35,966 nt of DNA from Myxococcales bacterium (GTDB lineage: Bacteria; Myxococcota_A; Polyangia; Haliangiales; Haliangiaceae), in assembly GCA_005779305.1 (NCBI GenBank), contig SXJR01000398.1, positions 1 through 35,966 of the forward strand, read 5' to 3'. The position numbers and the translations under genes are program-made. The notes below the pieces were generated by a model that was not told where the DNA came from, did not search any database, and worked only from the letters and a program-made list of their open reading frames with translations. The first letter of the stretch is position 1. Every line of letters begins with the position of its first letter. Of this stretch, positions 24,963-26,366 are shown in pieces.

Positions 24963-25014
24963 CGGTGTTACTCCTCGGTTACAGCAGGGGACCTACTGGT
25001 ATCATCCGATGATG
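24963..25014. other. residual upstream region of modA, 5' exon side of the intron
   Basis: These 52 bp lie between the modA start and the intron. They hold the modA Shine-Dalgarno, AGGGG (24986-24990), a palindrome ATCATCCGATGAT (25001-25013) and TATCAT at 25000-25005. CCGATG at 25006-25011 is repeated at 25617-25622 on the far side of the intron. Confidence 0.45.
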
Positions 25015-25230
25015 GTGCGTCGTCACGACGACGGAGGTCCCGCCGGGCAACCGGACGGTAACCCGCTGTCATGCCGTGAGGATCCAGGTGCAAGTCCCGT
25101 CTCGGTAAGCGCCAGAGCGCCGAGTAGCAGGCCCGCAGCAGAGGGGGAGACCCCGACGGCTGAAGCCGGGCGTCGAAGGCGAGCGAGTCAGCGCGAGCTG
25201 ATCAGCGAGGAGCGAGTACGCGAGCCGCAA

Positions 25231-25235
25231 CATCA
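25231..25235 (+). other. candidate EBS1 of the intron
   Basis: CATCA is perfectly complementary to TGATG, the last five nucleotides of the 5' exon (25010-25014). A pairing of this kind (EBS1-IBS1) defines the target in group II introns. Five bases alone could match by chance. Confidence 0.35.
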
Positions 25236-25538
25236 AGTGAAGCCTGCAGCCTTGACAGATGAACCATCCGGGGGCCGAGCCGCTCATTTCACGGGCAAGG
25301 CAACATCGACGTCGGGAGTTCTGGAGCACGGCGTCGACTCCGGCGGGGTACGGGGAGCAGCGCGCGTACAAGGATCACCACGGAAGCGCGTCGTGCTGTA
25401 CGACGGCGAACAAGGCTTCGCGACCGTCGCCAAGACCTGGACGCGGGACTACGTCTGGAGCCGCGGGCTACATCGCCTCAAAGGCAGCGTCCAGTATCCG
25501 GAGACCGTCCAGTACCGCTGGCACGAGAGCCCTCCCGC

Positions 25539-25571
25539 AAGCCGTGTGCGGGAAAACCGCACGCACGGTTT
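25539..25571 (+). ncRNA. group II intron domain V
   Basis: AAGCCGT pairs with ACGGTTT (7 bp, one G-U); GTGCGG pairs with CCGCAC (6 bp) under a GAAAA loop; a 2-nt GC bulge separates the two helices on the 3' side. The AGC catalytic triad, the stem lengths, the loop and the 2-nt bulge are the defining features of domain V. Confidence 0.88.
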
Positions 25572-25619
25572 CTACGGGGGTCGTACGGAAACTCGTAACG
25601 AGGGAAAGTAGATCTACCG

Positions 25620-26366
25620 ATGGCCAAGCGGCTCCTGCTCGTCGAGGACGAGCCCGACGTCGCGCGACTCCTGGTCTACAACCTGGAAGCGGCGGGCTGG
25701 ACCGTGACTCACTGCGTGCGCGGCCTCGACGCGCTGGCCCGGGCCCGTGTCGAGGAACCGGTGGTGGTGCTGCTCGACGTGATGCTGCCCGACATGTCCG
25801 GCTTCGACGTGTGCCGGAAGCTGCGCCAGACCCCGGAGTCGGCCGACGTCGGCGTGCTCATGCTCACCGCCCGCGGCGATCCCGACGATCGCATCACCGG
25901 CCGCGAGGTCGGCGCCGACGACTACGTGGTCAAGCCCTTCGTGGTGCGCGAGGTCATCCTGCGCGTGGCGGCCCTGGCCGGCCGCATCGCCGAGCGTAAG
26001 GCCCGCGTGGTCTTGCCCGGCGCTGGTGCTGGCGCCGCGCTGCGGCTGGGGCCGCTGACCATCGACACCTCGGCCCACGAGGTCACTCTCGGCGGCGCGG
26101 CGCTGGCGCTGCGCCCGCTCGAGTACAAGCTGCTCCTGACCCTGGCCGCCGCGCCGGGCCGCGTATTCTCGCGCGAGGATCTGCTGGCCGAGGTCTGGGA
26201 CATCAAGGGCAGCGTCTCGACCCGCACCGTCGACGTGCACGTCCGTCGCCTGCGGGTCAGCCTGGGCGCGGCCGCCGACTGGGTCGAGACCGTGCACGGC
26301 TTCGGATACCGCGCGCGCCGCGACGACGCGCCGCCGGACGAGGCTCCGGCCGCCGGCGGCGATTGA
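25620..26366 (+). CDS. PhoB-type (OmpR family) response regulator
   Basis: This 248-residue protein has an N-terminal receiver domain (1-120) with acidic pocket Glu9-Asp10, phospho-acceptor Asp53 in LLDVMLPDMSG, Thr83 and Lys105 in DYVVKPF. A winged-helix DNA-binding domain follows (about 145-235): LRPLEYKLLLTLAAAPGRVFSREDLLAEVWD, then SVSTRTVDVHVRRLR and HGFGYRAR. It closely follows the PhoB layout, but no pst or phoU genes are near, so phosphate control is only a suggestion. The ATG is 3 bp beyond the proposed intron end. GAGGGA is 14 nt upstream, a long distance; TAGATC 5 nt upstream could be a leaderless -10. It overlaps the kinase gene by one base (TGATG). Confidence 0.92.
   Translation: MAKRLLLVEDEPDVARLLVYNLEAAGWTVTHCVRGLDALARARVEEPVVVLLDVMLPDMSGFDVCRKLRQTPESADVGVLMLTARGDPDDRITGREVGADDYVVKPFVVREVILRVAALAGRIAERKARVVLPGAGAGAALRLGPLTIDTSAHEVTLGGAALALRPLEYKLLLTLAAAPGRVFSREDLLAEVWDIKGSVSTRTVDVHVRRLRVSLGAAADWVETVHGFGYRARRDDAPPDEAPAAGGD

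Follow-up and report, generated by a model that had tools for sequence, protein, structure and literature searches.

Group II introns at the start codons of apparently leaderless genes: an IEP-deleted copy in a myxobacterial contig and its relatives

Among group II introns, those of class C have a short IBS1. Another variant is represented by the yeast mitochondrial introns of the aI1/aI2 type, in which the IEP frame is continuous with the upstream exon, a long coding sequence. The available part of one account distinguishes three types of bacterial group II target, namely homing sites, terminators and attC sites (PMC4424553). Group IIC introns prefer transcription terminators, according to the accessible portions of two papers (PMC8919778, PMC4424553). 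The lineage found in the groEL gene of Azotobacter vinelandii is described, in the part of the source available, as inserted at the stop codon of the host gene, and a large insertion at the 5' extremity is reportedly common to its members (PMC4465626, which cites Michel 2007). For C.te.I1 of Clostridium tetani and other bacterial introns that are ORF-less, a trans-acting IEP or self-splicing is assumed in the available text (PMC4424553).

The window, that is, the whole 35,966-nt stretch of DNA that was analysed, is contig C359 of assembly G000, which measures 8.08 Mb and is 75% complete. It probably contains an IEP-deleted copy of an intron lineage specialised for the start codons of apparently leaderless genes. 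The features concerned are collected in Table 1.

Table 1. Features of the intron, its insertion site and its host gene in the window.
Feature	Position	Strand	Basis or remark
GTTAC-N6-GTTAC direct repeat upstream of host promoter, outside intron	24967..24982	+	possible response-regulator operator (function inferred)
-10-like hexamer TATCAT, 6 nt before start codon	25000..25005	+	TAnnnT scoring
IBS1 GATG, last 4 nt of 5' exon, ending in host ATG 25012-25014	25011..25014	+	pairs with EBS1 CAUU, including one G-U
199-codon frame open from exon ATG through intron	25012..25611	+	stop TAG 25609-25611 in domain VI, 8 nt before host ATG
Group II intron, inserted unit GUGCG...CUACCGAUG	25015..25622	+	608 nt; 3' boundary by homology with Nannocystis empty sites
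Domain I region, Rfam group-II-D1D4-4 (RF02003)	25082..25235	+	71 bits, E 8.7e-14, model 1-138 of 138, above curated score
EBS1 CAUU in hairpin loop GCCG-CUCAUUUCA-CGG	25285..25288	+	pairing with IBS1
Remnant of IEP C-terminus (WTRDYVWSRGLHRLKGSVQYPE) in 199-codon frame	25438..25503	+	query residues 143-164, E 6e-7 (single comparison)
Domain V and domain VI, single bulged A (25616)	25537..25621	+	Rfam RF00029, 42.1 bits (gathering 40)
Host gene, OmpR/PhoB-type response regulator	25620..26366	+	frame intact from ATG at intron 3' end

The window element is confirmed as a real group II intron. The preliminary description of this DNA had claimed a GUGCG-type 5' end, conserved blocks of domains I-III and a correct domain V, and had suggested a covariance-model search. 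The three features are all present. GUGCG, a form of the GUGYG expected at the 5' end, is present at 25015, and the search with Rfam matched both RF02003, for the domain I-IV core, and RF00029, for the catalytic stem-loop of domain V. Some relatives carry a relaxed 5' terminus (GAGCG, UUGCG, UCGCG or GAGUG). In minimum-energy folding, domains V and VI of the window beat 200 of 200 dinucleotide shuffles (z -2.99), and domain VI has a single bulged A, which lies three pairs up from the base of the domain. A single bulged A was obtained in three of five folded domain VI sequences (window, L129 and L155). The A of L147 lies opposite a G within a 1x1 loop, and L016 adopts a different fold.

At its 3' end the inserted unit terminates in ...AUG or ...GUG, where group II introns have a terminal AY. 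This may be read as a variant boundary, not as exclusion from the group II introns, because the NTG is shared and other boundaries, cyclically shifted within it, would fit as well.

The boundaries can be seen by comparison with empty sites. All three intron-less Nannocystis loci (L228, L229 and L231) show precise insertion. In L130, for instance, the intron lies between ...ggtacccttggccgcATG and CCGTTTCGC, and in the intron-less L228 and L229 a -10-like taccct and an ATG lead directly into CCGTTTCGC. Likewise, the intron of L127 lies between ...gctatactggcggGGTG and CGGGTCC, and in the intron-less L231 gctatactgccggaGTG is joined to CGGGTCC. The host gene of L124 was not found in the two other Nannocystis genomes searched for it. 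Judged from these alignments, the inserted unit is GUGCG...CUACCARUG after NTG, up to a cyclic shift within the repeated NTG. This shift is narrowed because the EBS1 pairing runs to the G before GUGCG. Homology with the intron-less loci makes the ATG at 25620-25622 the last three bases of the window intron, which therefore ends at 25622 and not at 25617, as given earlier. The intron ends in CTACCGATG, and this ATG opens the response-regulator gene. Domain VI offers a second measure of the boundary: the bulged A is followed by six nucleotides both in [A]CCAAUG and in [A]CUCUAC of Firmicutes relatives, the latter paired by eye. With its own AUG end, the intron departs from the AY rule.

The preliminary description had thus found the intron itself and missed its site, which is directly after the ATG at 25012-25014 and not in an anonymous spacer. 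The three closest intron-less relatives of the host gene start at the corresponding ATG, 8-9 nt after a hexamer (TATGAT in L089 and L090, TACCAT in L091). Similar GTTAC repeats lie upstream of L089 and L091. The repeat in the window looks like a putative autoregulatory operator of a response-regulator gene.

The same kind of site recurs across the family. Seventy 5' sites were catalogued, and 69 were scored after L058, with an 8-nt flank, had been left out. At many loci the 5' end was assigned by eye to whichever GTGYG candidate lay at the offset expected for it. The triplet before the intron is ATG in 46 of the 69 sites, GTG in 20 and another in 3, which gives an NTG in 66/69; four sites (L054, L056, L057 and L060) were located by a pattern that includes ATG. 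A TAnnnT hexamer ends 6-9 nt before the codon in 63/69 sites, with a gap of 6 in 40, of 7 in 18, of 8 in 4 and of 9 in 1. Each of the remaining gaps between 0 and 29 is represented by at most one of the 69 sites. Four of the six sites without strict TAnnnT still have TAnnn at the right place. By way of control, the hexamer was found at 215 of 15,559 ATG/GTG triplets in the same loci. A rougher control, the first starts of ORFs 250 aa or longer, gave 30 of 327, counting unverified starts and intron frames. Ten further sites, found by eye and then scored (L143 is not among them), have ATG in 10/10 and TAnnnT in 9/10.

A spacing of 6-9 nt between hexamer and codon is that of leaderless promoters. 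The host genes appear to be leaderless, with a -10-like element touching the start codon, and transcription would begin at the codon itself. Host frames that open at the 3' NTG include members of the EPSP-synthase family, aminotransferase class IV, MTHFR, a protein kinase and an ABC ATPase cut by a contig end. No Shine-Dalgarno-like stretch was seen beside the ATG of the Actinomadura EPSP-synthase-family host gene, and its expression may for this reason depend on splicing.

The hexamer could also be read directly by the IEP or RNP as a DNA motif, in which case its overlap with promoters would only make sites common and RNA polymerase would be uninvolved. Such reading can be likened to that of other introns, which read the distal 5' exon. 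The highest information in the flank falls on the hexamer's T, A and T and on the NTG, with position -4 next, and no -35 signal was seen in the flank information profile. Furthermore, the frame after the 3' NTG is shorter than 60 codons in 5 of 41 loci (L128, L135, L144, L147 and L152; one locus cut by a contig end is uncounted). All of these except L135 keep a strict TAnnnT, so a DNA-level motif may suffice. At these loci the motif may be enough without a gene, or the gene may have decayed. On the other hand, the gap is not constant, with values of 6 to 9 nt. This variation is usual for the spacing of a -10 element to a start site and would be loose for a rigid RNP contact. Direct reading of the motif is a serious possibility, which we nevertheless hold to be less probable than not.

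Another explanation for the pattern is survivorship. In this case EBS1 pairing would let the intron enter a large number of NTG triplets, and copies would persist only at leaderless starts, where the host gene stays expressible. EBS1 alone specifies just about 4 nt, and the host gene is not destroyed, because the 3' ATG is encoded by the intron. However, an NTG in expendable DNA or at a leadered start should be about equally harmless, and yet the hexamer is present at 63/69 sites, including those of 14 near-identical copies in a single genome. Survivorship is therefore quite improbable as the source of the pattern.

Duplication of the start codon as a target site was considered as a general rule and rejected, for the 5' and 3' codons differ in several copies. 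In L050, L128 and L148 a GTG stands before the intron and an ATG after it. In the genome G021, 5/5 seen 5' ends follow GTG and 7/7 seen 3' ends are ATG, the ends lying on different contigs and being assumed to belong to one subfamily.

How the codon is recognised can be studied through EBS1, which is readable in 49 of the 70 introns; the remainder are mostly cut by contig ends. Its third base pairs with position -3 in 49/49 introns, counting G-U pairs and one intron without an NTG (L144). Its fourth base pairs with position -4 in 45/49. When the copies of N. poenicansa are collapsed, position -4 is paired in 34/38, and 0 of 20,000 permutations, which ignore relatedness, were as good. The genome of N. 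poenicansa FL3 contains the 14 near-identical copies, all matching the full length of the 620-nt query, four at cATG and ten at gGTG. They differ, among other things, in one hairpin loop, which is CUCAUGCCA or CUCAUGUCA versus AUCACUUCG. The combination of a CAC EBS1 with a GTG target is found in N. poenicansa and, separately, in Actinomadura L148. On these comparisons, the predicted EBS1, 5'-CAU(N), is complementary to the start codon, and its sequence varies together with position -4.

A different candidate for EBS1, GTCATGC near intron position 55, was rejected: it is identical in ATG and GTG copies. The expected difference between them is seen in the loop at about 254-262. The four GTG-targeting N. 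poenicansa copies whose 3' ends were read (L123, L124, L126 and L127) end in CCAGTG, and their terminal codon therefore matches their own EBS1. Actinomadura L148, with its EBS1 CAC, nonetheless ends in CCAATG. The anticodon of the initiator tRNA has the same letters as the EBS1 CAU (25285-25287 in the window, for example). Any sequence complementary to AUG would be expected to share them.

When 95 genomes, counting that of the window, were searched at the DNA level, 24 matched, several of them by short matches that may be due to chance. Relatives with an IEP are present in the same genus (G001) and in the same family (G009, G018 and others). The IEP of G001 is identical to that of L118, from Kofleriaceae bacterium MAG_26. 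In G021, seven 3' and five 5' ends of a subfamily near to the window (L061, L062, L082-L085, L198, L205-L209) all lie close to contig ends. As far as the ends are seen, this subfamily has a GTG as 5' codon, a GAGCG 5' terminus and a 3' ATG.

The relatives with this target form one group. In a quick IEP tree with midpoint root, covering 63 of 80 loci (those omitted are mainly extra copies from genomes already included), 42 of the 63 rows make up one clade with an SH-aLRT of 99. A 3' NTG end is found by pattern in 41/42 rows of the clade and in 0/21 of the others. The remaining clade row, L119 (the locus of L050), ends in CCCAATG. Records of the clade come from Nannocystis and other Myxococcota, from Actinomycetota (Mycobacterium, Actinomadura and others), Planctomycetota, Acidobacteriota, Pseudomonadota and a few more, with MAG labels that may be wrong. 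A copy on an Embleya plasmid fits the start-codon pattern; the Embleya record annotates no genes at this place that could have supplied gene starts as a control. In the Streptomyces plasmid introns H3 and H5 (about 50% IEP identity), no start-codon 3' end was found by pattern.

Three tested IEPs match TIGR04416, RVT_1 and GIIM, and the domain search reported no endonuclease domain. The best match to an RT of solved structure is 7uim, which we take to be a group IIC intron, and the second is GsI-IIC (6ar1). These matches would suit an ordinary group IIC intron beside a terminator. The 21 rows outside the clade are mostly from Firmicutes, and several of these sister copies show, by eye, T-run hairpins just 5' of the intron. 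It is nevertheless very improbable that the window holds such an intron, as the 42-row clade has on its 5' side an NTG after a -10-like element. Six Firmicutes introns (L166, L173, L174, L185, L186 and L189) were seen by eye to follow terminator-like sequences of a hairpin plus T's.

The position directly after a start codon has a further consequence for members with an IEP. In most of those tested outside Actinomycetota, the captured codon opens a frame that continues across domains I-III as far as the maturase/RT. The frame from host NTG to RT was scored in 34 loci and then in eleven more, including L060. Of the first 34, 22 have a stop-free frame 0 with a length divisible by 3, and frames 1 and 2 hold 3-13 stops. 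Five of the eleven further loci are open (L060, L131, L132, L154 and L175), for a total of 27/45; the others are out of frame or contain stops. Arranged by phylum, the frame is open in 26/34 non-actinobacterial loci, of which seven are copies within a single genome, and in 1/11 actinobacterial loci. The 8 and 10 loci without an open frame count against this part of the explanation.

The one actinobacterial locus with a frame open from the host ATG is L154, a MAG copy, and the idea that frame capture is absent from Actinomycetota was dropped on its account. L154 is the deepest actinobacterial branch, so the capture may be old and may have been lost later in Actinomycetota. A conserved protein domain encoded by domains I-III was also considered and set aside. 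No clear excess at third codon positions was found in the domain I-III extension before the RT region, and the extension is therefore not conserved as a protein. For this reason the frame is read as probably held open so that translation can begin at the host codon. Domain IV contains an internal ATG, however, which may serve equally or be the actual start of the IEP. The frame is not kept in all deletion copies: L054, L057 and L051 shift frame in the RT.

The window copy itself derives by deletion from a group II intron that has no endonuclease. Its frame matches first the extension of a full IEP (E 1e-22) and, beyond the deletion, the last residues of the IEP (E 3e-6 and 6e-7). The 22 residues of the C-terminus that are kept are 61% identical to the IEP end of contig C224 (E 6e-7, a single comparison). 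An autonomous mobile intron has its own IEP with RT and maturase domains; here a C-terminal remnant only was found. A Pfam search of the 199-aa frame (25012-25608) gave 0 families at E 0.001, which agrees with the earlier claim that no frame carries RT motifs. The label "ORF-less" is correct in that respect and overlooks the 22-residue maturase/IEP tail.

Three further places in the assembly carry related copies. The one on C266 is about 745 nt long, with most of the IEP missing. The one at the end of C224 encodes the C-terminal 117 aa of an IEP, with a GIIM domain. On C91 (L018:1958-2116, minus strand) there is a remnant of about 160 nt, in which the first 25 nt of the intron are joined to its end. 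The frame of this remnant still reads MVRRDDDGSPEAV-stop, ahead of a response-regulator-like gene. All four copies of the assembly end in CCAATG or CCGATG, and the three with a 5' end present follow ATG.

The genome search for full-length IEP copies proposed in the preliminary description yielded related copies and a GIIM tail; a group II RT domain did not turn up in this assembly, which is 75% complete. The single RVT_1 hit, on C140 (L019:1633-2976), was rejected as a helper IEP: it is retron-like by profile match (retron_St85_RT, E 6e-59, 199.6 bits, below the family cut-off of 235). The suggestion that the intron depends on a maturase made elsewhere fits the presence of related copies, and lacks a helper RT domain in this assembly.

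On this evidence one might suppose that the window copy is a dead remnant that does not splice, its open frame being a chance event in GC-rich DNA. The IEP is largely deleted, the missing RT domain points the same way, and the C91 copy is clearly a remnant. In addition, the 3' side of the EBS1 hairpin is CGGGC, compared with CGGCG in relatives. Against this, the copy has kept GUGCG, a full-length RF02003, the EBS1-IBS1 pairing, domain V, the bulged A and the 3' end. Its 199 codons are free of stops, and the other two frames have 4 and 6 per 600 nt. A dead remnant is a serious possibility, although we lean against it. We judge the copy to be non-autonomous, and it could splice with an IEP supplied in trans.

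The explanation proposed for the lineage as a whole is as follows. The intron RNA would recognise the codon with a 4-nt EBS1, 5'-CAU(N)-3', or CAC for GTG. A -10-like element just upstream would be required, which we interpret as promoter DNA. Reverse splicing would then place the intron after the codon, between NTG and GUGCG, and precise splicing would restore NTG-codon 2. Whether spliced or not, the downstream gene keeps a start codon, because the last bases of the intron are ...CUACCAAUG. Where the frame is captured, an unspliced leaderless message could therefore make the IEP, and a spliced one the host protein. The window copy would need the IEP of another copy, having retained the ribozyme parts and the open frame. 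The intron seems to borrow the host gene's own promoter and start signal, since relatives nearly always sit exactly after a start codon that touches a promoter. One difficulty is that a 5' exon of 3-4 nt would be very short for splicing.

A more specific version holds that the introns home to leaderless promoters melted by RNA polymerase. EBS1 would pair with the exposed codon, and the 3-4 nt 5' exon would drive first the IEP and then the host protein. This version is rather unlikely.

The preliminary interpretation is supported in part; the start-codon and promoter-like target, the open frame and the occurrence of this target throughout a clade had all escaped it. A promoter/start-codon target would be a fourth type beside homing sites, terminators and attC. 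No description of it was met in titles or abstract openings among the matches listed in the open literature, and Michel 2007 may have partly anticipated it. Such introns would raise the questions of how splicing proceeds when the 5' exon is nothing but a start codon, and how ribosomes translate through a ribozyme in bacteria. Another would be how an ancestor possibly of the terminator type moved to the opposite end of the gene. They might also offer a sequence-only marker of leaderless promoters in phyla with few transcript maps.

Group IIC introns resemble the clade in having no endonuclease domain and a short IBS1, and in preferring a gene-boundary element over a long homing sequence. They differ in that the target of the clade is a promoter/start-codon junction, its EBS1 is an anti-start-codon CAU or CAC, and its end is its own AUG or GUG. 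In the yeast aI1/aI2-type introns, as with the captured start codon, a frame runs from the exon into the intron; here that exon would be a single bacterial start codon. C.te.I1 and the ORF-less introns are like the window copy in carrying no IEP within the intron, and the window copy additionally retains an IEP tail. The available part of the account of these introns (PMC4424553) mentions no intron that sits at a start codon and keeps the frame open.

The nearest known case, as far as the accessible portion of its description goes, is the Azotobacter groEL lineage. The branch to which the window belongs has about 45 nt more near its 5' end than most actinobacterial members, which may be compared with the 5' insertion described for that lineage in the part available. 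Both are inserted at a translation signal of the host: on the same partial account, the stop codon in Azotobacter, and the start codon here.
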